A stretch of 64,000 bases of DNA, taken from positions 3,348,753-3,412,752 of the forward strand of contig NZ_LT896716.1 in NCBI RefSeq assembly GCF_900187405.1. The letters run 5' to 3'. Shown here piece by piece: positions 44,858 to 61,523 of the stretch; position 1 is the stretch's first letter; the number at the start of each line of letters is the position of its first letter. The position numbers and the translations under genes are program-made. The DNA is from Geobacter sp. DSM 9736 (GTDB lineage: Bacteria; Desulfobacterota; Desulfuromonadia; Geobacterales; Geobacteraceae). The notes beneath the pieces were generated by a model. That model was not told the DNA's origin. It was given only the letters and a program-made list of their open reading frames with translations, and did not search any database.

Positions 44858-45688
44858 ATGCCTGTTTTAAACGCCCTCACCATCGATGTCGAAGACTGGT
44901 ATCATGTTTGTGATGTGCCGGGAATACCTGTCATCCCGGATGCGGAAAAGCGGGTAAGAAGAAATGTTGAGCTCATACTGGACATGCTCCGTGCCGTTCA
45001 GGTTCGGGCTACCTTCTTCATACTCGGGAGCGTGGCGCAGGATGAGCCGGATCTTGTTCCCAAAATCGTAGCGGAGGGGCATGAAATCGCTTCTCACGGC
45101 TGGTCCCATACGTTGGTTTCAAAATTGACCCCTGAAGCCTTTCGCTCTGAAATCGTTGCCACGGCGGACATCCTTGAACGCCAAGGAGGCAGGAGACCTT
45201 CCGGTTTCCGGGCGCCACAATGGTCTTTATGCAGGTCCTCTACGTCCTGGGCTTTCAGCATATTGCGCGAAGAGGGGTTCCGTTACGATTCGAGTCTAAA
45301 CCCTCTCCCTTTTGTGGGAAACCCCTGCGGTCCTCGGCAGCCGTTCGGGTTGGACACGGCAGCGGGGCGTCTTGTCGAGTTTCCTCCTCTCGTTATGCCG
45401 ACCTGCCTCGGCAACCTGCCGGTAGGGGGGGGCTGGGGGTTCAGGTTTTTCCCCTATGCTTTAGTGAAGAGAGCTATAAATCGTTTAAACAATGCAGGAT
45501 ACCCTGCCGTTCTATATCTACATCCGCGGGAGATAGACCCGGCAGGGCCGAGGCTCGGCCTTTCCCCTGTAAAAAAATTCGCTGCCTACGGACCTCGTTC
45601 CGATGCGTCGGAGCGCCTCAGGAAAATTTTTCTCGATTTTTCGTTTACCTCTCTCGATCAGTTGGTACAGTCTTGCAATACTGTGTAG
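44858..45688 (+). CDS. Polysaccharide deacetylase (DUF3473-type, NodB fold)
   Basis: The 276-aa protein removes N-acetyl groups from a glycan or related substrate by the metal-dependent NodB mechanism. Motifs are TIDVEDWYH near residue 8 (metal and base aspartates), ASHGWSH near 80 and RAPQWS near 118. The C-terminal part, including LHPREIDPAGP, matches the DUF3473 tail found in exopolysaccharide systems linked with exosortase. No exosortase gene is in the window. ATG 44858 follows AGGAAG; a TTG at 44828 lies against the tRNA terminator. It is the first gene of the accessory locus. Confidence 0.87.
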   Translation: MPVLNALTIDVEDWYHVCDVPGIPVIPDAEKRVRRNVELILDMLRAVQVRATFFILGSVAQDEPDLVPKIVAEGHEIASHGWSHTLVSKLTPEAFRSEIVATADILERQGGRRPSGFRAPQWSLCRSSTSWAFSILREEGFRYDSSLNPLPFVGNPCGPRQPFGLDTAAGRLVEFPPLVMPTCLGNLPVGGGWGFRFFPYALVKRAINRLNNAGYPAVLYLHPREIDPAGPRLGLSPVKKFAAYGPRSDASERLRKIFLDFSFTSLDQLVQSCNTV

Positions 45689-46335
45689 TTATTCCTGCAT
45701 ATAACGCTGTCCGTACGCTTGCGGCAGTGGTAAGCGAAGTCCTTGAATGTGGGATAGCTGTGGTGGTGATCGATGACGGTTCCACCGACGGCACTGCCGA
45801 TACCGTAAGGGATCTGCCGGTACAGGTCGTTACGCATGAGGAGAACCTGGGGAAGGGTGCGGCGCTTCGTTCCGGGTTTGCCTGGGCTCTCGCTCATGGG
45901 TACGAAGGCGTCGTTACGCTTGATGCCGACGGGCAGCATGATCCGACAGCAATAGTCAAGCTGGCACTGGAGGCAGAGCGGTTGGAGGCAGATATTCTCA
46001 TCGGTTCCCGCTATGCCCAATTCAACGAGATGGCGGGATTGCGGGCGTGGTGGAACAGGTTCGGAGTCTGGTGCATGCGCAAGCGGACCGGCTTTGAGAT
46101 AACCGACAGTCAGTCGGGCTTCCGGTGGTATTCCGCACGTCTCCTTCGTCAGCTTACGCTTCAATCGAATGGGTACCAACTTGAGATGGAGATTCTCATG
46201 AAAGCCTGGCGGCATGGCTTCTTCATAGCTTCGCTGCCTGTCCCTGCGCGGGTAGCGGATGGGAGGGGTACCAGCCATTTCCGTCCTGTGCGGGATACGT
46301 GGCGTATCTGCAAAATCTTTCTTCGGAATATGTAG
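45673..46335 (+). CDS. Family 2 glycosyltransferase
   Basis: The 220-aa GT-A glycosyltransferase is of the DPMS/Csu-like type. Marks are CVVIPAYNA at the start, VIDDGSTDGT near residue 36, EENLGKGAALRSGF near 57 and TLDADGQHDP near 85, with SGFRWY near 145. No membrane helices are visible. It starts at TTG 45673, inside the deacetylase end (16-base overlap); no ATG exists near the family N-terminus. It probably transfers a sugar to a lipid carrier or to the locus product. Confidence 0.85.
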   Translation: MQYCVVIPAYNAVRTLAAVVSEVLECGIAVVVIDDGSTDGTADTVRDLPVQVVTHEENLGKGAALRSGFAWALAHGYEGVVTLDADGQHDPTAIVKLALEAERLEADILIGSRYAQFNEMAGLRAWWNRFGVWCMRKRTGFEITDSQSGFRWYSARLLRQLTLQSNGYQLEMEILMKAWRHGFFIASLPVPARVADGRGTSHFRPVRDTWRICKIFLRNM

Positions 46336-46438
46336 GCTTGCCTGTCTATGCCGGTTTTGATGAAGCACTTTTGTCTTGCACTCCTAACCCTGCAACTCTA
46401 AGATTAGAAATTCCGGAAAGCTCCGCCAGAGGAAGCCA

Positions 46439-47812
46439 ATGCTGCAGAGCCTCAAAGATTATTCCAGCGAAAAAGTAGTGTCCCTTCTCCTGTCGCTCGC
46501 GACAAGCGCTTCCAATGAGACCCTTGCCCGAATGACTCATATCATGGAGTTCATCGCGAAAAAGGAGTATTACAAGGAGCGCATCCGCTGGATCAGACAG
46601 CTCATACGGGAAAATCACCCGTCCATTGCGTTTCCCTTGCGTATATTGCGGGAACTTCATCCGAACCAGCGTGACAAATGGATCACCAACCTCGCCGTCA
46701 ATCACCTCCTGTCGGGGACAAACCAGCGGAAGGCATGGGCGGATCGGGAGGGGTACTATCCGCCTTCCACCGTAGTCATAAGTCCCACGATGAAATGCAA
46801 TCTTTCCTGTTACGGCTGCTATGCGGGAGACTACCGCAACACGCTGGAACTCTCCCTTGATGAAATAGACTCGGTTCTCATGCAGGTGAAGGAGATGGGA
46901 GTCTATTTTGCGGTAGTTTCGGGTGGAGAGCCGTTCTTCAAGCAGGATATCTTCGAGATTTTCAAAAAGCATAACGACATGGCCTTCCTTGTTTTCACCC
47001 ATGGTGGGCTTGTGGATGAGGCGGTGGTAGAGAAGCTGATCGAGGTGGGGAACGTCATGCCCGCCTTCTCCCTCGAGGGGTACGAGGCGGAGACGGACGA
47101 ACGGCGTGGCCGCGGGCATTTTGCCAAGGTGATGCATGCGATGGACCTTTTGCGGGAAAACGGACTCTCCTTCTGCGGCTCCTTTACACAAACCAGCAGA
47201 AATACCGGCATCGTCACGAGCGATGAGTACATCGACATGCTGGTTGAAAAAGGCTGTTTTGCGTTGTGGCTCTTTACATACGTACCGGTGGGGCGTGAGC
47301 CCGATATCGAGCTTATGGCCAAACCGGAGCAGCGAGACTACCTGCGTCGCCGGGTGACAGAATTTCGGTCTTCAAAACCGATGCTCTTTGTGGATTTCTG
47401 GAATGATGGCCCCATCATCAGCGGCTGTATCGCCGGGGGAAGGAAATACTTCCATGTCAACGCCAACGGCGATATCGAACCATGTGTCTTCTGCCATTTT
47501 GCCGTCGACAACATTCGCCGGACATCCCTTCGGGAAGCCCTCAACTCTCCCCTGTTCAAGAAGATCCGCCAAGTGCAGGGAGAGAATGACAACCTGTTGC
47601 GTCCCTGTATGCTGATCGATCATCCCGAGGTGGGGAGGGAACTTTTCTCAGCTCACGGCACATATCCTACTCACGATGGAGCAGAAGCTATTTTCTCCCA
47701 GCTTGCAACAAGGATAGATGCCTACTCAGCCGATTATGCCGCAATTGCGGATCCGGCGTGGGCGCGGGAATCTTCAGATGGTCGCAGGGCCGAAGCGCAG
47801 GTGAAAAAATAG
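46439..47812 (+). CDS. Radical SAM protein with C-terminal SPASM/twitch-like cysteines
   Basis: The 457-aa enzyme has a helical N-terminal region (residues 1-110), then the radical SAM motif CNLSCYGC at Cys120, Cys124 and Cys127, which binds the SAM-cleaving [4Fe-4S] cluster. VSGGEPFF near 160 is the SAM-binding GGE motif. A C-terminal SGCIAGGRKYF and GDIEPCVFCHF pair near 320-350 suggests a second cluster. HpnH of hopanoid synthesis has a broadly similar layout. ATG 46439 follows AGAGGAAG. The substrate is unknown; its neighbours suggest a lipid or its headgroup. Confidence 0.85.
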   Translation: MLQSLKDYSSEKVVSLLLSLATSASNETLARMTHIMEFIAKKEYYKERIRWIRQLIRENHPSIAFPLRILRELHPNQRDKWITNLAVNHLLSGTNQRKAWADREGYYPPSTVVISPTMKCNLSCYGCYAGDYRNTLELSLDEIDSVLMQVKEMGVYFAVVSGGEPFFKQDIFEIFKKHNDMAFLVFTHGGLVDEAVVEKLIEVGNVMPAFSLEGYEAETDERRGRGHFAKVMHAMDLLRENGLSFCGSFTQTSRNTGIVTSDEYIDMLVEKGCFALWLFTYVPVGREPDIELMAKPEQRDYLRRRVTEFRSSKPMLFVDFWNDGPIISGCIAGGRKYFHVNANGDIEPCVFCHFAVDNIRRTSLREALNSPLFKKIRQVQGENDNLLRPCMLIDHPEVGRELFSAHGTYPTHDGAEAIFSQLATRIDAYSADYAAIADPAWARESSDGRRAEAQVKK

Positions 47813-47829
47813 CGGAGTAGCAACTCGGC

Positions 47830-48750
47830 GTGACACTTTACAGCAGTGCTAACTTGTTTCTAATCAATCTCCTGACGTTTCTGGTGCCGCGTATTCTTAT
47901 CCCGCCGTTCGCATTTGCCACGGCTCTGATTTTTTACACGGCTGCAGGAAGACAGCGTCGGGGGATCCGCGCCAACCTCCGCATTGTCACCGGCCGCAGG
48001 CAGGTGGAACTTCTGGTTGTTTCCAGTTTCTTCAAGTACGCCCGCAACTGGACGGACATCATGCTGATGATGCGGCTTTATGGGCGCCGGCTCTTCTCGC
48101 TCGTGGGGAGGGAGCAGGGGAACCTGATACTTGATGAGGTGCTTTCTGGCGGCAAGGGAGCGATTATCATATCGCCGCATCTGGGGAACTGGGAGCTGGG
48201 GGGGCTTGGGCTTGCCGACAGGGGCTACCGGCTGAATGTACTTACTTTCCGTGAGCCTGACGAAAAGGTGAACGAGCTGCGAGAGGAAGTGCGGAAGCGC
48301 CGGGGAATAGGTGTTATCTATGTCGACCGGAACGACACCTCTCCCCTGGCCATTATTGAGGCCGTAAATGCACTTCGCCGAAATGAGGTCGTGGCGCTTC
48401 TCGGTGACAGGGATGGGTCGTCGCACACCATGACGCTGCAGCTGTTCGGCCGGCCGGCACCGATTCCCGTCGGCGCTGCGTACCTGGCGCTTGCCAGTGG
48501 TGCGCCGGTTCTTCCGGTTTTCGTACCCCTGGAAGGGAGCAGATATGCAACCATCATGGAGCCGCCTATTTATTTTCATTCTCAGCATGGCAGGCATGAG
48601 GGGGCGATTCGGGAGGGGATGCAACAGGTACTGCGGGTATTCGAACGATATATAGGTCGTTATCCCGATCAGTGGTACAACTTTTTTGACTACTGGGACA
48701 ATTCTGAAATAAAGGAAAAGAGATGTCAGAAGAATTTATCACGGAAGTGA
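47830..48750 (+). CDS. LpxL/HtrB-like lipid acyltransferase
   Basis: The 306-aa protein has an N-terminal membrane anchor (residues 5-37) and the acyltransferase motif HLGNWE near residue 117 (HX4E/D catalytic pair), with LLGDRDG near 197 and PVFVPLEGSRY near 236. The family transfers acyl chains from ACP to lipid A precursors at the inner membrane. Here it is followed directly by an ACP gene (28-base overlap), so it probably moves the product of this locus onto a lipid. Aryl-polyene loci carry a comparable enzyme. GTG 47830 is the start. Confidence 0.87.
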   Translation: MTLYSSANLFLINLLTFLVPRILIPPFAFATALIFYTAAGRQRRGIRANLRIVTGRRQVELLVVSSFFKYARNWTDIMLMMRLYGRRLFSLVGREQGNLILDEVLSGGKGAIIISPHLGNWELGGLGLADRGYRLNVLTFREPDEKVNELREEVRKRRGIGVIYVDRNDTSPLAIIEAVNALRRNEVVALLGDRDGSSHTMTLQLFGRPAPIPVGAAYLALASGAPVLPVFVPLEGSRYATIMEPPIYFHSQHGRHEGAIREGMQQVLRVFERYIGRYPDQWYNFFDYWDNSEIKEKRCQKNLSRK

Positions 48751-48980
48751 AACAGCTGATCATAAATGCTCTGCGAATAGAAGGTATGTCACCTGACGAA
48801 ATCGAGACCGAAGCCCCTCTTTTTGGTGAAGGCCTCGGGCTCGACTCCATCGACGCCTTGCAGCTCGTGGTAGCCATGGAAAAGGATTACGGTGTCGTAG
48901 TTGCTGATGCGGCGACAGGCACTGAAGTCTTCAGGTCAGTTCGTTCCATGGCGGAGTACATAGCGGAACACCAAAAATGA
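48723..48980 (+). CDS. Acyl carrier protein of the accessory lipid locus
   Basis: The 85-aa ACP has the phosphopantetheine site GLDSIDAL with Ser42. It would carry the growing acyl chain for the ketosynthase, ketoreductase and dehydratase genes of the locus. It overlaps the acyltransferase gene before it and the radical SAM gene after it (ATGA), so the three are translationally coupled. No holo-ACP synthase gene is in the window. Confidence 0.92.
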   Translation: MSEEFITEVKQLIINALRIEGMSPDEIETEAPLFGEGLGLDSIDALQLVVAMEKDYGVVVADAATGTEVFRSVRSMAEYIAEHQK

Positions 48981-50284
48981 AGATCCTCTTCGTCGCGCCG
49001 GGGTGGCCACGGGGAAGACTCTGGGGGGAACTGGCGTTCCGCTTCCCGGTGCTTTCCCTCGCTGCGCTGGCGGCGGTAACACCTTCCGAATGGGAGGTGG
49101 AACTGTGCGACGAAAACAGGGAGCCTGTCGATTTTTCCGCCGATGTGGATATAGTCGCCATAACTGCCATGACGCCACAGGCTCCCCGTGCATACCAGAT
49201 AGCCGACCGCTTCCGTCTCAGCGGAAAGGCTGTCGTGATGGGGGGCTTTCACGCCAGCAATCTTCCCGACGAGGCGCTTTCCCACGTGGATGCGGTAGTT
49301 GTCGGAGAGGGGGAGCTGTCATGGCCGCAGCTTCTGGCAGACTTCCAGCAGGGGCAGATGGCGCGGATATACCGTCCCGACCGGCTGATGGGGATGGAGA
49401 CCCTGCCGATAGCCCGACGGGATATCTTTGCCGGAAAGGGTTATCTTCTTACCAACACTCTCCAGACTACACGCGGCTGTCCCTTCGACTGCGAATTCTG
49501 CTCCGTGACCGCCTTTTACGGCAGGAAATACAGGGAACGGCCAGTGGATTCGGTGCTCGCAGAGCTGCAGGAACTTCGCAAGAGCAACTCTTTCGCATTC
49601 TTTGTGGACGACAATCTGGTTGCTAACCGCCGTTACGCCCTCCGGCTCTTCGCCGGCATGAAGGGGATGGGTTTCAAATGGCTCTCTCATGCTCCCATCG
49701 ATTTTGCCGACGACCCGGAGCTTCTGGGTGCCGCGAGCGAGGCTGGATGCGTCGGGATGTTCGTCGGATTCGAGTCCCTTGATCAGCGGCAGCTTTCCGC
49801 AATGGGCAAAGTCACAAACATAGCCGACCGTTACCTGGAAAACTCCCTTAAGTTCCGTGACAACGGTATAGGTATACTGGGTTCTTTCGTGCTTGGTTAC
49901 GACGGGGATACCCCGGCAAGTTTCGAGAGCATCTTCAGGTTTTGTGAGGACGCGCGAATCGAGGCGGCTATCTTTCCCATCCTCACTCCCTATCCCGGCA
50001 CTGCTGTGAGGCGGCGGCTTCAGGCGGAGGGTCGCATCATCTCGGACTCATGGGAGGATTACGATATGGAGCACGTCACCTTCAGGCCTTCCTCCATGAG
50101 CGTGGATGAACTTCAGGCAGGTCATGACTGGCTGAACAGCTCCTTCTACTCCTTCCCGTCGATGTACCGGCGGTTATTCAAGCTGCATCGTTCAGTGCAG
50201 GTCTTTGCCCCTATGAACATCGGATTCCGGGGTGCAATTCGCAAAGTCAGAAAACTTAGCGGAATGGGCGGAGCGAGACGGTGA
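48977..50284 (+). CDS. B12-binding-type radical SAM enzyme (first of three)
   Basis: The 435-aa protein has an N-terminal Rossmann-like cobalamin-binding-type domain (residues 1-130, with GGFHASNLPDEAL and GEGE near 112). The radical SAM motif CPFDCEFC follows at Cys168, Cys172 and Cys175. A C-terminal extension near 330-420 resembles the DUF4070-like tail of HpnJ-type enzymes. Such proteins methylate or rearrange unactivated carbon. Its place after the ACP suggests action on an ACP-bound or lipid-bound chain; this is inference. Confidence 0.85.
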   Translation: MKILFVAPGWPRGRLWGELAFRFPVLSLAALAAVTPSEWEVELCDENREPVDFSADVDIVAITAMTPQAPRAYQIADRFRLSGKAVVMGGFHASNLPDEALSHVDAVVVGEGELSWPQLLADFQQGQMARIYRPDRLMGMETLPIARRDIFAGKGYLLTNTLQTTRGCPFDCEFCSVTAFYGRKYRERPVDSVLAELQELRKSNSFAFFVDDNLVANRRYALRLFAGMKGMGFKWLSHAPIDFADDPELLGAASEAGCVGMFVGFESLDQRQLSAMGKVTNIADRYLENSLKFRDNGIGILGSFVLGYDGDTPASFESIFRFCEDARIEAAIFPILTPYPGTAVRRRLQAEGRIISDSWEDYDMEHVTFRPSSMSVDELQAGHDWLNSSFYSFPSMYRRLFKLHRSVQVFAPMNIGFRGAIRKVRKLSGMGGARR

Positions 50285-51129
50285 ACTGTTTCATGTTTCC
50301 GGGGCAGCCGCTGACTACCCCAGCACATCTTCCCGATGACGAACATTTCCGGGCACTGGCCGAACTGGCGAGAGAGCGGACCGGATTCGACATCCCATCC
50401 TTTTCCTGGATTGCCGAACCCGCTACCGAAAACGTGAAGCTTCAGGTGCTAGGTGTGGCTCAGAGCCTTTACCGCGCGCGCCTGCTCTGCGAACAGGGAA
50501 TAATGCCCCACATCATCGCCGAACACAGTCTCGGGATCTACCCCGCTTTGGCCGTTGCCGGGTCAATTACCGAGGGTGATGCTCTTGAACTGGCCGGAAA
50601 AGCAGGAAGGCTCATGGCCGCAATGGGGGCAAGGGAGTTCGCCCTTGGCTGCATCATCGGTCTTTCCGCCGAGACTGTCCTTTCCATCGCCGAGGGAAGC
50701 GGCGTTTTCCTTGCCAACTGCAACACGTCCCGGCACTTTCTTCTCTCAGGCACCCGTGCCGCCATGAAGATGGCCGAAACTGCTGCCCGTGCCCAGGGAG
50801 CCTTTTCGGTCGCACTCTTTCAGTGTGATGCTCCTCTCCACACACCGCTTATGGCGGAGATGGAAGATCATTTTTATTCCCTCTTCAGCTGTTATGACTA
50901 CAGAGAGCCGTCTGTTCCGGTCATGAACCATCTGGACAACAATTTTCTCACTGCCGCCGGAACTTCTGCATTCCTGGTACGTCAGCTGATGGAGCCTGTA
51001 TACTGGGAAAGAACCTACCTGGCGCTTCGCCATGCCGGCGCCTCCTCCTTCTTTGAGACGGGCCAGGGGGAGTCCCTGAAAAAATACAATCGGTGGATCG
51101 ACAGTGAGCGGGAAAAAGAGGATGCGTGA
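50281..51129 (+). CDS. FabD-like acyltransferase with altered active-site motif
   Basis: The 282-aa protein has the malonyl-CoA:ACP transacylase fold. The nucleophile motif reads EHSLG around Ser83 instead of the usual GHSxG, and the general base histidine is in APLHTPL (His187). The arginine that holds the malonyl carboxylate in FabD (in the xRGxxMQ segment) seems absent: the matching stretch is KAGRLMAAM. It may use a different acyl group or act as an editing hydrolase. GTG 50281 overlaps the preceding stop. Confidence 0.78.
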   Translation: MNCFMFPGQPLTTPAHLPDDEHFRALAELARERTGFDIPSFSWIAEPATENVKLQVLGVAQSLYRARLLCEQGIMPHIIAEHSLGIYPALAVAGSITEGDALELAGKAGRLMAAMGAREFALGCIIGLSAETVLSIAEGSGVFLANCNTSRHFLLSGTRAAMKMAETAARAQGAFSVALFQCDAPLHTPLMAEMEDHFYSLFSCYDYREPSVPVMNHLDNNFLTAAGTSAFLVRQLMEPVYWERTYLALRHAGASSFFETGQGESLKKYNRWIDSEREKEDA

Positions 51130-51544
51130 GCACGAAACTATTGAGAGCGTGCGGTTCTGTGAAGTCGATTCTTACGGAGTCGCCTGGCACGGTCACTATC
51201 TGGCCTGGATGGAGGCCGGCAGAAATTCTCTCGGCTCCCGCTTCGGATTGGGCGTTGCCGAGATGGCTGAAGCGGGATACATGGCCGTCGTCGTAGAAGC
51301 AAGCGTCAGATATTTGAGGCCTGCGCGCTTCAACGAAGAGCTGCGGGTTTTTACCACAGCCAGCCGCACGGAAGTTGCAACCCTTGTCTTCAATTCCCGT
51401 ATCGTCGGCCCCGACGGTGCGTTATGCGCCACCGGCCGGACGGTTCATGCCCTTACCGACCGGCAAGGAGTGCTTCAGTACCGATTGCCGGAAGTGATTG
51501 CGGAGCGGCTTGCCTGCCTGCTGGCATGGACGGAGGGGGAATGA
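51122..51544 (+). CDS. Hot-dog acyl-CoA/ACP thioesterase (4HBT family)
   Basis: The 140-aa protein begins with the YbgC/FadM-like signature VRFCEVDSYGVAWHGHYLAWMEAGR, containing the catalytic-type aspartate and the WHGHYL pattern. It would release acyl chains from ACP or CoA. It overlaps the acyltransferase gene by eight bases and the next radical SAM gene by four. ATG 51122 is used; GTG 51104 is possible. A similar small thioesterase is a standard member of aryl-polyene loci. Confidence 0.86.
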   Translation: MREHETIESVRFCEVDSYGVAWHGHYLAWMEAGRNSLGSRFGLGVAEMAEAGYMAVVVEASVRYLRPARFNEELRVFTTASRTEVATLVFNSRIVGPDGALCATGRTVHALTDRQGVLQYRLPEVIAERLACLLAWTEGE

Positions 51545-52926: not shown

Positions 52927-52978
52927 AGCTCCGCTGCGCGGCTGCACAAATCTGGAAAAATTCTGTTCAGGAGGAGCC

Positions 52979-53719
52979 ATGGACTTTGCCGATAAACGGA
53001 TCGTGGTAACCGGTGGAACCAGGGGAATCGGGCGCGCCGTAACGCTACACTTCGCCAGGCTCGGAGCACACATAACGGCAGCCTACCGCGAAAACGAAGA
53101 TGCTGCTCGGACCCTTGCGGAAGAGGCTGCGGGACTTCCGGGTTCAGTTTCCACCTTCAAGTCGGATGTCGCCACCGGCGAAGGGGCCGTTGCCCTCATT
53201 GACGCTGCAGCGGAGGCTACGGGGGGCATTGACATTCTCATCAACAACGCCGGGATAATCAGGGACTGCTACTTGCCGATGATGTCGGAGGAAGATTGGT
53301 GCGCCGTCCTCCACAGCAACGTTTTTCCGCTCTTTCACTGCTGCAAGTGGGGCTTGAGGAAAATGCTCTCGCGGCGCAATGGCGCTATTGTCAATATCTC
53401 CTCCATAGCCGCTTTCACCGGCACTGCCGGACAGACCAACTATGCCGCCAGCAAGGGTGCCATCGTCAGTTTCACCAAAGCGCTGGCCCGGGAAGCAGGT
53501 CCCTTCGGCATCAGGGTGAACGCGGTCGCGCCGGGACTCATAGAAACGGAAATGCTCTCCGGGATGAGCCGTGAGGCGATCGACCGTGTGACGAAGGGTT
53601 CCTCCTTGGGGCGGATCGGCCGCGCGGAGGAAGTTGCAGAAGCAGTGGCATTCCTCGCCTCCCCAAGTGCCTCGTACATTACGGGACAGTGCCTGGTGGT
53701 GGATGGGGGTATTCTTTAG
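52979..53719 (+). CDS. 3-oxoacyl-ACP reductase (FabG family)
   Basis: The 246-aa short-chain dehydrogenase has cofactor loop TGGTRGIG near residue 11, NNAG near 88, catalytic Ser in ISSIAAF and the YxxxK pair in YAASKGA near 152. The C-terminal GQCLVVDGG is the FabG signature. It would reduce beta-keto groups after the ketosynthase step. ATG 52979 follows AGGAG; a 52-base gap precedes it, the widest in the core of the locus. Confidence 0.9.
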   Translation: MDFADKRIVVTGGTRGIGRAVTLHFARLGAHITAAYRENEDAARTLAEEAAGLPGSVSTFKSDVATGEGAVALIDAAAEATGGIDILINNAGIIRDCYLPMMSEEDWCAVLHSNVFPLFHCCKWGLRKMLSRRNGAIVNISSIAAFTGTAGQTNYAASKGAIVSFTKALAREAGPFGIRVNAVAPGLIETEMLSGMSREAIDRVTKGSSLGRIGRAEEVAEAVAFLASPSASYITGQCLVVDGGIL

Positions 53720-53768
53720 CTCCAAGTTTCCTTTGCCTTCCTCGCTTCTTTACGGTTAAGATACCGGA

Positions 53769-54977
53769 ATGTTCCATAAAAAAAGAATAGCCATTACCGG
53801 CCTCGGCGTTTTCTGTTCCGTCGGTCACGACGTCGGCTCCTTCAAAAAAGCTCTCCTTCAGGGCAATAGCGGCATAGGCGGGATAGATCTTTTCGATGTT
53901 TCCTCGTTCCCCTCTCAAATCGGTGCCCAAATCAGGGGCTATAATCCCGGCGATCACTTCGACCGGAAATCTGCGCGCCGTCTCTCCCGTGCCGATCAGT
54001 TCGGAATAATCGCGGCCGGTGAAGCAATACGTTCCAGCGCCATTCTCGGTGCGTATGATCCTTACAGCATAGGCGTGTCCCTAGGTGCCGGGGCTGCAGG
54101 GATGATCGACGGCGAGCAGTGGCTCCGGGAGCGGCTGTCGGGGAAGAAGGGGACTCCATCGCTCCTTCGCGGCATCCTTCCCGACCGGACTTCCACTGCC
54201 GTTGCATCTCATTTTGGTCTCGGCGGCTATCAGGGTAGCGTCACCACCGCGTGTTCATCGTCAGCCACAGCCGTCGGTTGGGGGGCGGATCTCATTGCTT
54301 CGGGAGAGCTGAAGGCATGCGTCTGCGGCGGCTCCGATACCCTTTCTCTGCTCACCTTCGCCGGCTTCAATTCGCTGCGTGTCGTAGATCCCGAGCCTTG
54401 CTCTCCGTTCAGCCTCGGCCGCCATGGAATCTCCCTTGGAGAGGGGGCCGCGTTCGTCGTTCTCGAAGCAGAGGATGACGCCAGGGCCCGTGGAGCTACC
54501 GTATATGGCTACATCCTCGGTTATGCCGTAGCAGGCGAGGCCTTCCACATGACCGCCCCTGAGCCGAACGGTGTTGATGCCGCCCGCGTCATGGAGCAGG
54601 CACTTCTGGCGGCGGGGGTTTCTGCAGCCGACGTCGGATGGGTCAACGCACACGGGACCGGCACTCCACTGAACGACGTGGTGGAGAGCAAGGCGATGCG
54701 GAATGTTTTCGGCGAACATGCCGCAGATGTGCCTCTCGTATCCACGAAAGCCATGACAGGCCACTGCCTCGGTGCTGCAGGTTCCATTGAGATCCTCGCG
54801 ACGGCGTTAGCGCTCGGAGAAGGTATAGTTCCACAAACACTTAATTTCAGAGGTGTTGATCCGGAATGCGATCTTGACCATTGTCACGGCGGCGCCAAGC
54901 CTTCCTCGGCCCGTGTCGCGCTTTCCAATTCCTTTGCATTCGGGGGAAACATAACCTGCGTGGTCATCGGCATATGA
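53769..54977 (+). CDS. Beta-ketoacyl-ACP synthase (FabF-like, catalytically complete)
   Basis: The 402-aa condensing enzyme has all three catalytic residues: Cys162 in TTACSSSATA, His295 in NAHGTGT and His332 in MTGHCLGAAG. FGGNITCVV closes the C-terminus. It extends the chain by decarboxylative condensation with malonyl-ACP. Its stop overlaps the start of the ketosynthase-like partner (ATGA), which suggests a heterodimer as in type II polyketide and aryl-polyene systems. Confidence 0.92.
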   Translation: MFHKKRIAITGLGVFCSVGHDVGSFKKALLQGNSGIGGIDLFDVSSFPSQIGAQIRGYNPGDHFDRKSARRLSRADQFGIIAAGEAIRSSAILGAYDPYSIGVSLGAGAAGMIDGEQWLRERLSGKKGTPSLLRGILPDRTSTAVASHFGLGGYQGSVTTACSSSATAVGWGADLIASGELKACVCGGSDTLSLLTFAGFNSLRVVDPEPCSPFSLGRHGISLGEGAAFVVLEAEDDARARGATVYGYILGYAVAGEAFHMTAPEPNGVDAARVMEQALLAAGVSAADVGWVNAHGTGTPLNDVVESKAMRNVFGEHAADVPLVSTKAMTGHCLGAAGSIEILATALALGEGIVPQTLNFRGVDPECDLDHCHGGAKPSSARVALSNSFAFGGNITCVVIGI

Positions 54978-56017
54978 AAGAACGGTATGATATAGTTGTT
55001 ACGGGGGTCTCTGCCATAACGCCAGCGGGGATAGGCATCGGCCCCTTGCGGACTGCTCTGGTGGAACAGCGGAGCCACCTGCAGCCTGTACCACCGGATT
55101 TTGCCGGAGGGGAAGGGCACTTGTGGGGTAGAGCGGAGGGTTTTAAAGGAAGCGATTACCTGCCACCCCTCAAGGCGCGTCGTTTCGATCGGGGAAGTCT
55201 TTTTGCAATCGTTTCGGCCGGAATGGCTCTCAGGGATGCGCGGATCGATACTTCAGCCGTCAATGCGGAGCGGATAGGCATCGCCCTTGGTTGCGGCTTC
55301 GGCGGCATCGCAAATTCTGTCGAGTTTCTGAGCGGCTATTTCGATAAGGGGAGCAGCGGGCTCGTCCCGATGCTGTTTCCCAATACGGTACCCAATGCTC
55401 CGGCGAGTAATGTCTCTATCGAGCATGGTCTTAAGGGACCCAACATCACGCAGGTTCAGCGCTTTTGCTCCACCGAGTCGGCATTCCAGATGGCATGCCG
55501 CTTTCTTCGGGAAGGGCGGGCTGACGTGATGCTGGCCGGAGGGGTTGATGATTTGAATCCGTCCATCATAGACGGATTCCGATCAGCAGGCCAGCTGTGC
55601 TCCTGGGGGAACGGGTTTGGCGAGGGGTGCGGGATGCTTGTGCTGGAGAGGCTGGATTACGCCGAGAAGAGAGGCGCCCGGCCTATCGCAGCAATCGGGG
55701 GCATTAGGACCGTGGGCCGTTTATTGCCTGGGCGGGAGAAGGAAGGGCTGGAAAAGCTTTGCAGCAATAATGTCCCCGGCCTCGTATCCTTCTCCGGTAC
55801 AGCCGGTCTTATGGAGGAGTTTCGCGAACGTTTCCCAGGCATACCGGCGATTGATGTCGCTCCTGTCATTGGCCGCTCCCTCGCCATGGGAGGGACATCG
55901 CTGGCGTTCTTGGCCGCATCTCTCGAGCCTGAACAGCGGGGGCTGCACCTGGCGGCATCGCCGGAAGGTCCCTATTTCGCCATTGAAACGATGGGAGTCG
56001 CCCCTGTTCGATCCTGA
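54974..56017 (+). CDS. Ketosynthase-like partner lacking both catalytic histidines
   Basis: The 347-aa thiolase-fold protein is shorter than active KAS enzymes (about 410 aa). Cys165 is kept in RFCSTESAF, but the segment matching NAHGTGT reads VSFSGTAG (Ser274 for His) and the one matching GHxxGAxG reads GRSLAMGG (Arg301 for His). It therefore should not decarboxylate malonyl-ACP. In type II systems such partners act as chain-length factors, though those usually lose the cysteine. It is translationally coupled to the complete synthase. Confidence 0.83.
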   Translation: MKERYDIVVTGVSAITPAGIGIGPLRTALVEQRSHLQPVPPDFAGGEGHLWGRAEGFKGSDYLPPLKARRFDRGSLFAIVSAGMALRDARIDTSAVNAERIGIALGCGFGGIANSVEFLSGYFDKGSSGLVPMLFPNTVPNAPASNVSIEHGLKGPNITQVQRFCSTESAFQMACRFLREGRADVMLAGGVDDLNPSIIDGFRSAGQLCSWGNGFGEGCGMLVLERLDYAEKRGARPIAAIGGIRTVGRLLPGREKEGLEKLCSNNVPGLVSFSGTAGLMEEFRERFPGIPAIDVAPVIGRSLAMGGTSLAFLAASLEPEQRGLHLAASPEGPYFAIETMGVAPVRS

Positions 56018-56390
56018 TCCGGCCGCATATCTTCCACACCGGTTCCCCTTCCTCTTTCTCGACCGGATTACCGCCCTCGAACGGGGAAGTTCCGCCCGCG
56101 CCCTGATCGCACAATCCTGGGGTTGCGGAGGGCGCCCGATGTTCTTTTCCATAGAAGCCATGGCGCAACTCGCCGGAATTGCCGCGGCGGCTGATGGAAG
56201 AGGGGGAGGGAGCCTTGCTGCAATTGACCGGGCAGAGCTGCACGGCGACCCGGGTGACGGGGAGGTGACTGTCTCTGTGCGGGTCATCAAGTCGTTTTCA
56301 CCTCTCCACCTGGTTGAGGGGGAGGTAACCGCCGGTGATCGTCTTCTTGCACGGGCGACTCTTACAATAAAGGTAGGTTCCGCCGCGTGA
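55983..56390 (+). CDS. FabZ/FabA-like hot-dog dehydratase
   Basis: The 135-aa protein shows the 3-hydroxyacyl-ACP dehydratase signature: LPHRFPFLFLDRI with catalytic His19, and FSIEAMAQLAG with catalytic Glu58. It would create trans double bonds; without an enoyl reductase gene in the locus these could be kept, giving a polyene. The start is uncertain: TTG 55983 overlaps the preceding gene, while CTG 56004 has a better-placed GGGAG site and would remove seven residues. Confidence 0.82.
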   Translation: MKRWESPLFDPDPAAYLPHRFPFLFLDRITALERGSSARALIAQSWGCGGRPMFFSIEAMAQLAGIAAAADGRGGGSLAAIDRAELHGDPGDGEVTVSVRVIKSFSPLHLVEGEVTAGDRLLARATLTIKVGSAA

Positions 56391-57013
56391 TACGGTTCAA
56401 GAACATCATCGAAACTGCGCTTTTCCTGTCACTTCTCCTCCTTTTTCCTGCTTCAGTGCCCGCGGCAACCCAGCTACCCGCGCTGGAGGGACTGGAGCTG
56501 GTTCGCCGGGGTATGACTGGTATGAACGACTTTACAGCCGACATCACCCAGGAGAAGCAGATCGCCCTGCTCAAGAAGAAACTGGTTTCCACCGGCAGCA
56601 TGAAGTTCCGGCGTCCTGACCTGTTCTTCATGGAGATGAAGCCGCCATACGCGAGCCGGATGCTCCTTCGGGACAACGTGCTGACCATGATGCTCCCGGC
56701 AGAGAATGTCCGGCAGCAAACGGTGCTTCCTCCGGAAGAGGGGCTACTGCGATGGTTCAGGCTTCTGGATAAGCCTGTTACAAAGGTTCCCGAGGGGATG
56801 GGGGTTCGCGCGGAGAAGAGCGGCAATGAGATCACGCTTGTTATGGTCCCTGCGGGGAAACGGGGAGTACGCGAGCTGAAGCTGACCATTCAGGATGATG
56901 GCCGTCCCCGGCGGCTGCTCCTTATCGAGCGGAACGGTGACCGCACCGACATACTTTTCCGGAACGTCAAACGCAATGTGGGGCTGACGGATAAAGATTT
57001 CAAGATCGATTGA
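56387..57013 (+). CDS. LolA-like periplasmic carrier protein
   Basis: The 208-aa protein has a signal peptide (residues 1-27, cleavage near VPAATQ) and a LolA-type beta fold, with QEKQIALLKKKLVSTGSMKFRRPDLFFME near residues 55-83. LolA moves lipoproteins across the periplasm. LolA-like members in lipid or polyene loci are thought to move the lipid product or its lipoprotein instead. GTG 56387 overlaps the dehydratase stop. Confidence 0.83.
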   Translation: MIRFKNIIETALFLSLLLLFPASVPAATQLPALEGLELVRRGMTGMNDFTADITQEKQIALLKKKLVSTGSMKFRRPDLFFMEMKPPYASRMLLRDNVLTMMLPAENVRQQTVLPPEEGLLRWFRLLDKPVTKVPEGMGVRAEKSGNEITLVMVPAGKRGVRELKLTIQDDGRPRRLLLIERNGDRTDILFRNVKRNVGLTDKDFKID

Positions 57014-57038
57014 CACTACTGAATTGAGGGATGGGCTC

Positions 57039-57743
57039 ATGATGTTCTCCAAGGCATACCGGAAGATCTTCTGCTCAGCAATTCTTCTGCTTCTCGCCGG
57101 TTGTGCGACTGTTCCTAAGGCTCCACAGTTTTTCCGTCCCGGCGTTCAGTTGGAAACTCTAACCGCGGCGGTCTCTGTCTCGGTGAAGACGCCGACGGGT
57201 GGTACCGGAGGTAACGGCTACCTGGCGTACCGCAAGCCGGACCGTCTTCGCCTCGTGATGCTCACGCCGTTCGGGACTACTGCCCTGGAATTCTGCACTG
57301 AAGGTGATCGGGCGACCCTGGCCATCCCTTCCAAGGATGTGGCATATGTTGGTGCCGTTGCGGACCTGCCGGAGGGGAACGGCATGCAGGTGTGGCGCCT
57401 AATGAGCTGGGCTGTTGAGGCCGACCCCCTCTATGACCCCGCATTGCCCGGAACCGTTGCGCGATCGGACGCTGGAGGAGGACGGTATCTCGCATATTAC
57501 GGAGACGACGGGCTTCTTGAGCGTAAGGTGACAGAGGAAGGCGATACCGTGCATTACCGCGACTACCAGTCCATCGACGGGGCGCCTCTCCCATCGGTGA
57601 TGGAGTTCAGCGACACCAGAGGAGTGCGGGTGAAGGTGACCCTCAAGGAGCCCGAGATCAACCAGCCTTTGGAGGATGCCGCCTTCTCGCCCCATCTTGA
57701 GGGGCTGTCCATAACACCGCTTTCCCAATTCAGGGGAATGTAG
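57039..57743 (+). CDS. LolB-like outer-membrane lipoprotein
   Basis: The 234-aa protein has a clear lipoprotein signal, LLLLAGCATVPKAP, with lipobox cysteine near residue 22. The body is rich in beta strands (GYLAYRKPDRLRLVML, VTEEGDTVHYRDYQS, VKVTLKEPEINQP), like LolB/DUF4292-type lipoproteins. Paired with the LolA-like gene 25 bases upstream it could receive cargo at the outer membrane. ATG 57039 follows GAGGG. The exact family is uncertain. It is the last plus-strand gene of the locus. Confidence 0.75.
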   Translation: MMFSKAYRKIFCSAILLLLAGCATVPKAPQFFRPGVQLETLTAAVSVSVKTPTGGTGGNGYLAYRKPDRLRLVMLTPFGTTALEFCTEGDRATLAIPSKDVAYVGAVADLPEGNGMQVWRLMSWAVEADPLYDPALPGTVARSDAGGGRYLAYYGDDGLLERKVTEEGDTVHYRDYQSIDGAPLPSVMEFSDTRGVRVKVTLKEPEINQPLEDAAFSPHLEGLSITPLSQFRGM

Positions 57744-57893
57744 GCTAATCATTCTCCCTTTGCCAAATCTCTCCTTTTTGCGATAGCAAAACAGCCTCCC
57801 CCTGCGGCGCAAACTTTGGGGGGAAACCAACCTCCCAGTCTTCTCAGTCACCACTTGCCTTTGTGTTCCTTGTCAGCGCCTCTTCGCCGGAAA
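57744..57893. other. Intergenic region at the end of the plus-strand locus
   Basis: A small hairpin TTTTGC-GATA-GCAAAA (57776-57791) and a C-rich/G-rich pair near 57797-57824 are visible. Neither has a proper T tract; one or both may end transcription between the converging units. Confidence 0.35.
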
Positions 57894-59468
57894 TCATAGT
57901 GCTGGTTTTTGAGGTGCCGGTCGCCACCATCCATGGTAACTGAACGGCACATGATGGGTCAGGCATACGGTGGCGATGGGGCCTGCCGAAGTCCTCTCAG
58001 CGTCCAGAACCGCCAATGAGCTGGTGCGGGTGGTGCTGTCGTAGATTTCCGTCAGGACCCACCCCGGTTCTGCTCCTTCAGCACTGTAGCGATAGCCAGG
58101 AAGAGGAACGAAGTTGGGTTCGCAGCAGTAGACCCCGGCGGGAAACCAAAATTGCTCAACCCGGCCGCTGGTTATATCGAAACGGGTAATGCCGGACCAG
58201 AAGAACTCGCCGGGACGGCTCTCGGCGACGTAGGCGTAGCGGTAGGGAGCAAGAAGAAGCCGGTCGTTGATGCGCGGCCATTCGCAACGCCCCGCGTATG
58301 TAATTTCCTGGGAAGCCTTTCGGCGATTCAGATCTATCCGGTAGCGGCGGATCTCCCCCGGCCACCGATGCTCTCCCGGCCGGCCCTCCATGGCGGCAAA
58401 GATAAAGGGATCGCTTCCGACGATGTGGTCCGGGTTCCGGTACCCGACAAAGTCCGCCACTATCTCATTACCCCGTTCGACTGCATTGATGGAGTGCCAC
58501 ATGAAACGAGCCTCGGTTTCCAGAAGCAGGGGAGGAGATTCGGAATGGCGGTCGATCACCATAAGAAGCGTCCCTTTCTGCGGCTGCCACCGTAGGGAGT
58601 CGGCGAGGCTGCGACGACCGAGAAGGAACCCCCAGACGGAAATTTCCAGTGGGTGAAGGTTGATGATGGCGTGGCGACGGGTGACAAACCAGTCGTGCAT
58701 GTAGACGTAGCGTGGCAGAGGAAACGAACGGTGACCTGTTAGTCTCCCATCGGAACCGAAGGCGGTCAGATGAATTTCCGGCGACGGGCCATGGCGGACG
58801 CCGAAGTGGAGCCACTCTCCCGTCGCAGGATCGAGCTTCGGGTGACCCGAGTAGGTTGTGAGATCGCGGGGCAGTCCGAAAGAGGTTTCCCCCACGGTTG
58901 CCAGCGTCTCCGGATCGATTTCGAAAGGGAGGCTAGATTCATCGAAGGCGAAGAGTTTTCCCCGCCAGAAGACGACCGATATCCCTGCCTGGCTGATAAC
59001 GTCTCCCGCGCGCCAGATATTGGCGAGCCAGCCGCCTGGGGCTTGGGTGCTCCAGGTAGGGCGAGTGAAGCATCCTGCGGCTTCTTCTTCGATGAATTTC
59101 GGGGTACGGACGAAACGGTTGCGGTAGCGGACTCCCCGATCATCGAAACAAAAGGACTGTACCATGCCATCGCCGTCGATCAAGGTTCTCTTCCGGAGGC
59201 CTCCGCGGTCAAAGAGGCCGGGACCGTTGCGGTACAGGGTTCCTCGCAGTGAAGGTGGAATTCGCCCCTCTACCGAAGCCTCGTAATCAAATTCTCTTCT
59301 AAGGGACGTTGCCATACCCAGGTACGGGCGGTTGCTGTCTCCGAAGTCGGGAAAATCCTCTTTTCTCAGGGGGAGATCGCGCGCGCATCCCGGCAGCGCC
59401 AGCGAAAGGCCGGAAGCACAGCAGGCCGCCAGGAACTGCCGCCGGCTCAATGAGGCGAAAGTCATCAT
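57894..59468 (-). CDS. Tat-targeted carotenoid-cleavage-type oxygenase
   Basis: The 524-aa protein is of the carotenoid oxygenase/RPE65 family, non-heme iron enzymes that cleave conjugated double bonds with O2. Four histidines at the family positions are visible: His209 (YSGHP), His258 (YMHDW), His325 (MWHSI) and His512 (SYHGWW). The N-terminus has a twin-arginine signal, SRRQFL, and a cysteine at LPGC near residue 28, suggesting export and perhaps lipid attachment. The enzyme is unexpected in a mostly anaerobic lineage and lies tail to tail with the polyene-type locus. Confidence 0.85.
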   Translation of the reverse strand: MMTFASLSRRQFLAACCASGLSLALPGCARDLPLRKEDFPDFGDSNRPYLGMATSLRREFDYEASVEGRIPPSLRGTLYRNGPGLFDRGGLRKRTLIDGDGMVQSFCFDDRGVRYRNRFVRTPKFIEEEAAGCFTRPTWSTQAPGGWLANIWRAGDVISQAGISVVFWRGKLFAFDESSLPFEIDPETLATVGETSFGLPRDLTTYSGHPKLDPATGEWLHFGVRHGPSPEIHLTAFGSDGRLTGHRSFPLPRYVYMHDWFVTRRHAIINLHPLEISVWGFLLGRRSLADSLRWQPQKGTLLMVIDRHSESPPLLLETEARFMWHSINAVERGNEIVADFVGYRNPDHIVGSDPFIFAAMEGRPGEHRWPGEIRRYRIDLNRRKASQEITYAGRCEWPRINDRLLLAPYRYAYVAESRPGEFFWSGITRFDITSGRVEQFWFPAGVYCCEPNFVPLPGYRYSAEGAEPGWVLTEIYDSTTRTSSLAVLDAERTSAGPIATVCLTHHVPFSYHGWWRPAPQKPAL

Positions 59469-59523
59469 GGCATTAGTATAACAACGTGCGAGGCGTGTGC
59501 AGGAATGAGGGAAGAAGTAGTTG

Positions 59524-60111
59524 CTAATGGAGGCGGGTCAGGCCGAAGAGAAACTTGCTCGAATTGAGCGGCTCATTCGGCTCTGCCGTTCCGGCGTTGG
59601 AAATGTGATGGTAACGGTATTCAGCTGTCAGGGCGGTGCTTTTGCTGAAAAACCAGTTGATCCCTGTCCCTCCCTGATAGGAGAAGTTGAGCCGTGTCCC
59701 CTGGGTTTGCAGGCCCAGATCGTTAATTAGTATTCCCCCGCCCCAGAGGAGGTAAGGGGACAGGTTGCCGCCGGGCGAGAATTTCCAGCTTCCGAGGAGG
59801 TAGCCTCCGACCATGGTGCGGACTCGCGGGTCGAGGGTAAGGTGAACGGGAAGCTCCACAATGATTTCATGGCGACCCCTGTACCAGCCGTTTCCAACTT
59901 CTTCCGAGAGGAAATGACCGTAACGCAGAATGGCGTCGACGGTCTGGACCTGACTTCGGGTGGCGCCGAAACCACGGTGGGTGATTCCGTACCCGCCTAA
60001 AAGTGCAAGTTCCCCTGTGGCAGCCGCAAGGGTAACATTCTCACCTGCGCATGCTGGAGGCGTTGCCCCATAGAACAGCACAAAGACTATAGCCACGATG
60101 AACGCTACCAT
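59524..60111 (-). CDS. Lipid A 3-O-deacylase, PagL family
   Basis: The 195-aa outer-membrane beta-barrel-type protein has a signal peptide ending near CAG (residue 22) and ends in an aromatic-rich strand. The PagL catalytic motif is present in YRYHHISNAG, with His169 and Ser171, and acidic residues follow at 178-180. PagL removes the 3-position acyl chain of lipid A. It follows the third radical SAM gene with a seven-base overlap, so lipid A remodelling and radical chemistry are genetically linked here. Confidence 0.83.
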   Translation of the reverse strand: MVAFIVAIVFVLFYGATPPACAGENVTLAAATGELALLGGYGITHRGFGATRSQVQTVDAILRYGHFLSEEVGNGWYRGRHEIIVELPVHLTLDPRVRTMVGGYLLGSWKFSPGGNLSPYLLWGGGILINDLGLQTQGTRLNFSYQGGTGINWFFSKSTALTAEYRYHHISNAGTAEPNEPLNSSKFLFGLTRLH

Positions 60112-61523
60112 TTCTGCTTCATCTCGAACCGGAGAATTTCCGGCAGATTACGCAGGAAATGGGCAATACTGTGTGGGGACTTCCAGAGCATTTTGGCATA
60201 CCCGACGTGAATGCGGTGGCGGCGGTAAAAACGCCTTATGAACTGATTATAGAGATCTTCCAACTGCGGCTTGCTCATCCCTTTGGGAATGAAGACGAAG
60301 TTCATGCAGTTCATCAGCGGCCACTCTTCGAAGAACTCTCCGTGTTCCCGGATGTCGCGGTATACAGGGGCTCCGGGGAAGGGCGTGAACTTTGTGACGT
60401 TTATTTCGTCAAGTGGGAGCTTCAGAGCGTAGTCAATAGTGCGGAGGATCGATTCTTCAGTTTCTCCCGGCAGCCCGATCATGAAGAGACCCTTCACACG
60501 CATTCCCGATTTTCTCACCAGTCGAAGTTTCGTTTGCACCTCATCAAGACCGTAAAATTTCCGGTGTTTCCTTATCACCTCCGGATCTCCAGATTCGATG
60601 CCGAAATTTACCTGCCAGCAGCCGGACCGCTTCAGAAGCTCAAGCAGCTCCGCATCTACATGTTCGAGGCGAGCGATGCAGTTGTAGGTGACCGGAAGGC
60701 GCTTTTTCTCCTTCAGTTCGCAGAATCGGGCTATCCGCTTTCTATCAAAGGTGAAAAGGTCGTCGTAGAAGAAAACGTGGCGGATTCCGAAGTCCCGGTG
60801 GAGAAAAGCCAGGTGCTCAACGATGTACTCGGGTGAATTGAATCGGAATCCCTGACTGAACACCGACCTGTCGCAGTAGCTGCAGTGGTAGGGGCATCCG
60901 CGGCTGGATATGACGCTGGTGTTTGGAGCAGTCGGGTAACTGAACAGCGGGAGGTTGTACCGGCGGGGGAAATCCGGGAGCCGGTGGTAGGCCGGAAATG
61001 GGAGATCGTCAAGGTTCCTGATGAGCTCCCGTACACTTGATGCTGTTGTGCCGTTGGTGCTGCGGCAAGCCACTCCAGGTATTTTTTCAGCTCCCGTAAA
61101 GCCGGCTGTCGACAGTTCGAGCAGTGTCAGCTCCCCTTCCCCGAGAACAAGATAATCGATGGCGGGAAACATTTCGAGCAGGGGAGGACCCACGGAGCAT
61201 GCGTGGGCGCCGCCGAAAATGATGGGTAGGGAAGGCCGTTTCTCCTTCAGAAGTTCAGCGATACCGTATCCTTCGAGGAAGGAGGAGGTGGTGCAGGAGA
61301 AGGCCACAGCGTCGGGGCTGCGGCTGAGGATATCTTCTGCCAGGGCTGTGCCGGTGAGCGCGGTGCCGTAGCAGTCGATTATCTCTGTAAGTATGCCGTG
61401 GGATTCAAGATAGGCAGCGATGCTCAATATTCCCAGGGGGGGCATCAGGTTGAAGATGGTGCTGATGTCTTTGCCGCTCCCCATCCAGTTGGACCCGTGC
61501 GGATGTACGAACACTATTTTCAA
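60105..61523 (-). CDS. B12-binding-type radical SAM enzyme (third of three)
   Basis: The 472-aa protein has the cobalamin-type N-terminal domain (FNLMPPLGILSIAAYLE near residue 24, GGAHACSVGP near 104, LGEGE near 127) and the radical SAM motif CPYHCSYC at Cys210, Cys214 and Cys217. GIESGD and FTPFPGAPVY further on are typical. A basic C-terminal helix-rich tail follows. Translation starts at TTG 61523, five bases after GAGG; an extended start at 61595 lacks family similarity. It heads the minus-strand unit with pagL. Confidence 0.85.
   Translation of the reverse strand: MKIVFVHPHGSNWMGSGKDISTIFNLMPPLGILSIAAYLESHGILTEIIDCYGTALTGTALAEDILSRSPDAVAFSCTTSSFLEGYGIAELLKEKRPSLPIIFGGAHACSVGPPLLEMFPAIDYLVLGEGELTLLELSTAGFTGAEKIPGVACRSTNGTTASSVRELIRNLDDLPFPAYHRLPDFPRRYNLPLFSYPTAPNTSVISSRGCPYHCSYCDRSVFSQGFRFNSPEYIVEHLAFLHRDFGIRHVFFYDDLFTFDRKRIARFCELKEKKRLPVTYNCIARLEHVDAELLELLKRSGCWQVNFGIESGDPEVIRKHRKFYGLDEVQTKLRLVRKSGMRVKGLFMIGLPGETEESILRTIDYALKLPLDEINVTKFTPFPGAPVYRDIREHGEFFEEWPLMNCMNFVFIPKGMSKPQLEDLYNQFIRRFYRRHRIHVGYAKMLWKSPHSIAHFLRNLPEILRFEMKQKW

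Follow-up and report, generated by a model that had tools for sequence, protein, structure and literature searches.

What product is made by a bacterial locus in which the genes of a type II fatty-acid-like synthase are interleaved with cobalamin (B12)-type radical S-adenosylmethionine (SAM) enzymes and followed by lipid carriers? Such a locus lies in a 64,000-nucleotide stretch of the Geobacter sp. DSM 9736 genome (the window), which covers positions 3348753–3412752 of a single 3.96-Mb contig. Fifteen plus-strand genes span 44858–57743 of the window in the order polysaccharide deacetylase, family 2 glycosyltransferase (GT2), radical SAM/SPASM protein, LpxL-like acyltransferase, acyl carrier protein (ACP), first B12 radical SAM enzyme (B12a), FabD/MdcH-like acyltransferase (AT), thioesterase (TE), second B12 radical SAM enzyme (B12lad), ketoreductase (KR), ketosynthase (KS), KS-like partner (KSL), dehydratase (DH), LolA and LolB. 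This locus is best read as a type II synthase that resembles those of aryl polyenes, with export through Lol and MMPL proteins; B12 radical SAM enzymes stand in place of the SAM methyltransferase, and aryl-starter genes are missing. With moderate confidence, we propose that the operon serves to assemble and decorate a polyene-type acyl chain and to anchor and export it within the cell envelope. The new element would be an acyl lipid of anaerobes, probably polyenic, that is exported and decorated by B12 radical SAM enzymes.

Synthase, anchoring and export genes

Eighteen window proteins were scanned against Pfam and NCBIfam, and all named genes were located in open frames at the coordinates given here. 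The gene classes of the initial annotation, namely a type II fatty acid synthase set, radical SAM genes, envelope genes and opposite-strand genes, were all present with Pfam or NCBIfam support. Among the 14 gene junctions of the plus-strand run, 9 overlapped and the largest gap was 103 bp with the starts assumed below, which indicates a single operon.

The KS (53769–54977; PF00109 and PF02801) was complete, and its Cys162, His295, Lys327 and His332 were kept in 40 of 40 sequences, including that of the window. Its partner KSL (54974–56017) matched PF00109 only. Phe164 replaced the catalytic Cys of KSL in 40/40 sequences, and the HGTxT and KxxxGH motifs were found in none of the 40. In the accessible part of Rattray et al. 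2009 (PMC2649909), Table 2 prints Phe at the catalytic Cys place of the G. sulfurreducens protein NP_951518. The structure model of KSL (predicted local distance difference test, pLDDT, 87.0) showed a KS-type fold. Foldseek ranked the shorter subunit of AntDE (PDB 6smo/6smp), which we take to be AntE, first by E-value (1.1e-22). FabF structures followed at 3e-22, with TM-scores of 0.74–0.78 compared to 0.71–0.73 for AntDE (query length). AntDE and KSL shared 19–20% identity, and the lead over FabF was small. The chain-length-factor role of KSL is therefore suggested by its dead active site and its adjacency to KS, since the fold ranking was not decisive.

The catalytic residues of the other synthase proteins were conserved wherever examined. 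These were Ser42 of ACP (48723–48980; PF00550 39.7 bits, NF006617 77.7 bits with a cut-off of 70) in 26/26 sequences, Ser83 and His187 of AT (50281–51129; PF00698 36.5 bits) in 30/30, the Tyr and Lys of the FabG-type KR (52979–53719; PF13561 206.8 bits, TIGR01830 256.6 bits and below its cut-off) in 39/39, and His19 and Glu58 of DH in 40/40. The DH (55983–56390), which is FabZ-like with weak family scores, was read from TTG 55983, with CTG 56004 as an alternative start. The TE (51122–51544; PF13279 61.4 bits) is of the 4HBT hot-dog type and was read from ATG 51122, with GTG 51104 as an alternative.

Envelope-related genes lie at both ends of the operon. The first gene encodes a DUF3473 polysaccharide deacetylase (44858–45688; PF11959 117.6 bits, PF01522 77.8 bits). 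It is followed by GT2 (45673–46335; PF00535 89.1 bits), for which the start TTG 45673 was assumed and GTG 45727 is the alternative. In the LpxL-like acyltransferase (47830–48750; PF03279 97.8 bits), the His and Glu of the HxxxxE motif were kept in 25/25 sequences. The last two genes encode a LolA-like periplasmic carrier (56387–57013; PF03548 56.7 bits) and a LolB-like outer-membrane lipoprotein (57039–57743; PF03550 37.3 bits), the latter matched by Pfam only, with no NCBIfam match.

Conservation of these genes as a unit was analyzed across 141 genomes of the order, with cut-offs of 140 bits for KSL and 400 bits for B12lad. KSL orthologues were found in 83 genomes and B12lad orthologues in 81. 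Both occurred jointly in 80 genomes and neither in 57, while KSL alone was present in 3 and B12lad alone in 1. This joint presence and absence is beyond chance (Fisher test, p 1e-34, with shared ancestry ignored). For neighbourhoods, 39 KSL stretches were taken from the 82 other KSL-positive genomes, and some absences in them reflect contig or stretch ends. KS, KSL and DH were present in all 39, KR and LolA in 38, B12lad in 32, TE in 31, AT in 30, LolB in 27, B12a in 26, SPASM and ACP in 25, GT2 and LpxL in 24, and the deacetylase in 23. The gene order was conserved across the fetched loci. The genes do co-occur in related genomes. Six loci (L041, L043, L055, L056, L059 and L075) contained the part from KR onward alone, and all six genomes carried B12lad elsewhere; other loci had unrelated genes between B12lad and KR. 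These patterns suggest that the locus is built of two halves.

An MMPL-family protein was present in 29 of the 39 neighbourhoods, usually directly after LolA or LolB; the family was assigned by PF03176 in a representative from locus L076. The source genome has an orthologue at contig positions 331957–334500 (54% identity, 944.6 bits), about 0.9 Mb from the locus if the chromosome is circular, next to genes for a sigma54-type response regulator and a histidine kinase. This unlinked gene is, by its orthology, the putative exporter of the locus. A loss of export in this genome was considered and rejected because of this orthologue. The initial annotation had seen no enoyl reductase, CoA ligase, MMPL exporter or ammonia lyase; this holds for the 18 scanned proteins, but the exporter is unlinked rather than absent.

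The aryl-polyene cluster ApeA-R of Escherichia coli, as described in the accessible part of PMC8253772, was used as the comparison reference. Both systems contain KS and KS-like proteins, KR, DH, ACP, TE, an acyltransferase, a glycosyltransferase, LolA, a LolB-like protein and an RND/MMPL exporter, which is linked in the aryl-polyene set and unlinked in the window genome. However, the acyl-ACP synthetase ApeH, the SAM methyltransferase ApeB and the third KS ApeR are not in the window locus, which has B12 radical SAM enzymes, the SPASM protein, AT and the deacetylase instead. No ApeG-like protein was found among the 18 window proteins. AMP-binding and SAM-methyltransferase domains were likewise absent from these 18 proteins, and the rest of the genome was not searched for ApeH or ApeB. 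The initial annotation had proposed an envelope-bound, modified acyl chain; an aryl-polyene-like synthase with anchoring and export genes agrees with it, but its suggestion of ladderane-type cyclisation is not supported.

Cobalamin radical SAM enzymes and the anammox cluster

B12lad (51541–52926) matched the NCBIfam model TIGR04072 (rSAM_ladder_B12) with 379.1 bits against a cut-off of 360, over positions 1–440 of 443. The next-best families were BzaD (172.2 bits), PhpK P-methyltransferases (133.8) and tryptophan 2-C-methyltransferase (126.2). In a sample of the phylum, six TIGR04072 matches from the order scored 379–401 bits and other members up to 651 and 683; the enzymes of the order formed their own clade. 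No paper on TIGR04072 was found by accession or name in the open-licence literature.

The AlphaFold model of B12lad (pLDDT 90.4) had TsrM, a cobalamin-dependent tryptophan C2-methylase (PDB 6wte/6wtf), as its nearest fold over the whole length (Z 37.4, root-mean-square deviation 2.3, 446 of 461 residues). Further matches were AprD4 (Z 29.9), MgmA (29.6) and OxsB (27.7). B12lad Arg68 aligned with TsrM Arg69 in a profile alignment, with the position counted by hand from printed residues. As stated in the accessible part of PMC8992657, TsrM Arg69 lies under the cobalamin, prevents a lower ligand and is required for tryptophan methylation. The equivalent residue was Arg in 79 of 81 TIGR04072 family rows, with one Lys and one gap. 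The genome holds 20 B12-binding matches; among the 11 distinct B12 radical SAM proteins compared, this Arg was found only in B12lad and a paralogue (contig 1470248), and B12a and B12c were without it. In TsrM, Glu273 prevents SAM from reaching the cluster. Its equivalent in B12lad is Ile241, and the family rows mostly had Ile or Val, with Glu in 0/81. B12lad thus resembles TsrM in its whole-length fold and cobalamin-facing arginine but differs in lacking the cluster-binding Glu273 and in its substrate, which is probably an ACP-bound acyl chain. The nearest fold, the nearest families and this one residue suggest that B12lad may act as a methylase, whether by a polar or a radical route.

The surroundings of TIGR04072-type genes were also surveyed more widely. 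A KS or ACP match accompanied them in 16 of 19 stretches of the phylum and, among the matches listed, in 28 of 37 loci from named records, which include Victivallis vadensis, Ferrimonas, Bacteroidota, Omnitrophota and Planctomycetota. In the same two sets, LpxL was found in 8/19 and 18/37, GT2 in 9/19 and 15/37, TE in 8/19 and 14/37, and MMPL in 5/19 and 8/37, with several stretches being short. The family therefore lies mostly beside type II synthase genes, with export genes in a minority at this sensitivity.

The other radical SAM genes of the operon are B12a (48977–50284; PF04055 59.1 bits, PF02310 42.2 bits) and the 457-aa SPASM protein (46439–47812; PF04055, PF13186). The CxxxCxxC motif was kept in all sequences examined (32 for B12lad, 26 for B12a, 7 for B12c and 26 for SPASM), and all six examined cysteines of SPASM were kept in 26/26. 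Among 25 full loci, two B12 radical SAM genes lay between SPASM and KSL in 15 and three in 10; an apparent fourth match in L078 is one gene split over two frames. Two or three such genes per locus would suit position-specific tailoring.

Four loci outside the set of the order carried B12a and/or B12lad of the window type. One of them, L165 (record titled Acidobacteriota), had 65% identity for B12a and 55% for B12lad, and the other three (L117, L123 and L151) fell within the B12lad clade of the window. A transfer of such loci between phyla is possible. A second lipid-like cluster was observed at contig positions 1470239–1476162, with a TIGR04072-like B12 radical SAM gene (348 bits), a SAM methyltransferase, a U32-peptidase-like gene and a chalcone-synthase/FabH-like synthase; another B12 radical SAM gene lies on its other strand. 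Three hydrazine-synthase-positive genomes (loci L246, L249 and L254) carry the B12 radical SAM enzyme (35–37% identity) and the synthase (51–54% identity) of this second cluster.

The initial annotation connected the locus with proposed ladderane loci. Hydrazine synthase alpha was found in 8 of 16 genomes checked, and one of these holds locus L245. Its order is deacetylase, KS, short KS-like, methyltransferase, KS, small protein, AMP-ligase, SPASM radical SAM, B12 radical SAM, KR, ACP, DH, methyltransferase, MMPL, desaturase-like gene and GT2, which matches the labels of kuste3351–3335 as far as these are visible in PMC2649909 and PMC4790861. The anammox cluster and the window share the deacetylase with the same two domains, KS with a short KS-like partner, radical SAM/SPASM, the TIGR04072 enzyme, KR, ACP, DH, MMPL (unlinked in the window genome) and GT2. 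The AMP-ligase, two SAM methyltransferases, an amine-oxidase/phytoene-desaturase-like gene and further KS genes are confined to the anammox cluster, whereas AT, TE, B12a, LpxL, LolA and LolB are confined to the window locus. The phytoene-desaturase-like, AMP-ligase and SAM-methyltransferase genes, present in L245, were not found among the 18 window proteins. A genome-wide search for the desaturase-like protein gave no match, in a search without a positive control.

A careful tree built from 48 rows placed the B12lad clade of the window as sister to the anammox-type enzyme (bootstrap/SH-aLRT 100/98). When the window clade was forced with the remaining core rows, p-AU was 0.0067 for a group named after seeing a tree. 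A first tree with long branches left the grouping unresolved; it emerged once 10 rows that were long or deep had been removed, and the 48-row tree was thinned by 23 more. The rows came from several searches and form an uneven sample among the matches listed. Asp240 was common to both clades (27/27 rows compared to 1/54 others). Three loci from the phylum of the window and one from Nitrospirota likewise fall into the anammox-side clade. KS and KSL of the order formed their own clades apart from the anammox KS genes, with weak deeper forks. The anammox SPASM protein had better matches at two other sites in this genome (102.7 and 60.9 bits compared to 57.1 bits), so the window SPASM is not its reciprocal best match and orthology between them does not follow.

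The link to ladderane loci is therefore real at the gene level, since B12lad passes TIGR04072 and is sister to the anammox-cluster enzyme. Ladderane-type cyclisation is not supported. The locus lacks the desaturase, the ligase and the methyltransferases, the KS pair stands apart with weak deep forks, SPASM is not reciprocal, and the fold with one residue favours methylation over rings. The locus is related to, yet distinct from, the ladderane-candidate cluster, and ladderane synthesis by it is not supported. Similar clusters in Geobacter members and Pelobacter carbinolicus were already noted by Rattray et al. 2009, in the accessible part of PMC2649909.

Flanking genes and regulatory signals

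Beyond LolB, three genes lie on the minus strand. The RPE65-type carotenoid oxygenase (57894–59468; PF03055 374.8 bits) sits where many relatives have the MMPL exporter, and it showed a weak match to a twin-arginine signal in a presumed anaerobe. The initial annotation had placed it in the locus; it was found in 0/39 neighbourhoods and was rejected as a pathway member. The PagL-like outer-membrane deacylase (59524–60111; PF09411 67.1 bits) and the third B12 radical SAM gene, B12c (60105–61595; PF04055 97.1 bits, PF02310 64.4 bits), are variable neighbours, with PagL in 11/39 neighbourhoods and a B12c orthologue in 8/39. Some 1.4 kb beyond the end of the window, the minus strand carries a further B12 radical SAM gene (633 aa), with an unassigned 190-aa frame beside it.

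A tRNA-Ala gene (anticodon CGC) is located at 44716–44791, directly before the operon. The Rfam scan of 40000–64000 gave this tRNA alone above thresholds and no cobalamin riboswitch. A tRNA island was also considered: no tRNA was found before the operon in 24 relatives scanned, but only 15 of these stretches have at least 470 bases upstream of the deacetylase, so the result carries little weight. The G+C content was 0.48–0.53 in the 5 kb before the operon and 0.52–0.60 inside the locus. Promoter-like (9 compared to 7.3) and terminator-like sites (13 compared to 17.5) were within one standard deviation of shuffled sequences. A strong terminator-like stem was observed on the minus strand at 61682–61710, between a cytochrome gene and B12c, with 13 pairs, 10 of them G-C, and a T tail.

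Proposed pathway and alternatives

Every chemical step, as well as the product, we infer from the gene set. AT would load malonyl or starter units onto the dedicated ACP, KS would elongate with the catalytically dead KSL as chain-length factor, KR would reduce and DH would dehydrate. An enoyl reductase is missing from the locus, so the chain would stay (poly)unsaturated. B12lad may then methylate the ACP-bound chain as TsrM does, with an arginine-capped cobalamin passing the methyl group to a carbon that is sp2 or activated in another way, and B12a, with the extra paralogues of relatives, may methylate other positions. TE and the LpxL-like acyltransferase, the likely anchoring enzyme, would transfer the chain onto a glycolipid in whose synthesis GT2 and the deacetylase take part. 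Finally, MMPL (unlinked here), LolA and LolB would carry the lipid to the outer membrane.

Several points weigh against this pathway. DH stayed below both cut-offs (Pfam FabA-like 18.8 bits, cut-off 23; NCBIfam FabZ 40.5 bits, cut-off 113), and Foldseek gave no distinct chain-length-factor match for KSL. The chain could also be a substrate of a housekeeping enoyl reductase. The locus has no aryl-starter genes, so it does not encode an ordinary aryl polyene. B12a and B12c reached no NCBIfam cut-off, which makes the term methylase a guess for both. The second fold match of B12lad, AprD4, is a dehydratase and is also a sequence match. Since a Glu273 equivalent is missing, the mechanism of B12lad need not be the non-radical one of TsrM.

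Three other products were weighed. The LpxL-like enzyme may attach a special acyl chain to lipid A, a molecule on which the deacetylase, GT2 and PagL would also act. The presence of LpxL, deacetylase and GT2 in the locus and of PagL in 11 neighbourhoods fits this lipopolysaccharide modification, but PagL was not found in 28/39 stretches, some of which end early. Lipopolysaccharide, moreover, is transported by its own Lpt route. In the accessible part of PMC8253772, LolA, LolB and MMPL make up the aryl-polyene export set, and lipid A is also considered as an aryl-polyene anchor. On balance, we consider lipid A modification unlikely. For Desulfotalea, Rattray et al. proposed that a polyunsaturated fatty acid or hydrocarbon is made anaerobically; for the present locus, such a route appears quite unlikely. 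The locus does have a single KS/KSL/KR/DH set, and the accessible part of PMC2649909 places the Geobacter clusters together with the D. psychrophila one and reports polyunsaturated hydrocarbons in that species. However, the anchoring and Lol/MMPL export genes suggest an exported lipid rather than a free hydrocarbon, and the locus has no desaturase-like gene.

Highly improbable is a ladderane-like or otherwise cyclised lipid, in which the B12 radical SAM and SPASM enzymes would close rings on an ACP-bound polyene. The strongly supported sister position of B12lad, the common Asp240, and the recurrence of deacetylase, KR, ACP, DH, MMPL and GT2 matches in the anammox cluster speak for it. Against it stand the missing desaturase, ligase and methyltransferase genes, the KS and KSL clades apart from the anammox KS genes (with weak deeper forks), the non-reciprocal SPASM and the non-anammox members of the anammox-side clade. 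According to the accessible part of PMC2649909, D. psychrophila has a cluster syntenic to the anammox one with no detectable ladderanes, although the B12lad tree excludes its enzyme. Searches of the open-licence literature found nothing that joins Geobacter, aryl polyene and ladderane, and no papers for the guessed locus tags GSU0458–0463; a product published in a subscription journal is possible.

The exported, methylated polyene stays our preferred product. A more tentative idea concerns the family, and we hold it at low confidence. TIGR04072 enzymes, including the anammox one, may be TsrM-type arginine-capped cobalamin methylases, or may form another cobalt-mediated C–C bond, on ACP-bound polyenes. 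In that case, ladderane loci may descend from a methylation system for exported polyenes that Geobacter-like bacteria have kept. If this is true, the suspected TIGR04072 enzyme would not perform the radical cascade cyclisation of ladderanes. Ladderane biosynthesis is an open problem; in the accessible part of PMC4790861, E. coli expressing the proposed anammox genes is reported to have given no detected ladderanes or intermediates. Geobacter-like anaerobes, which include laboratory strains, carry a sister form of the suspect enzyme in a simpler, export-linked locus. If right, the structure-based guess of TsrM-like methylation would give a function to a widespread radical SAM family and shorten the list of candidate ring-making enzymes.

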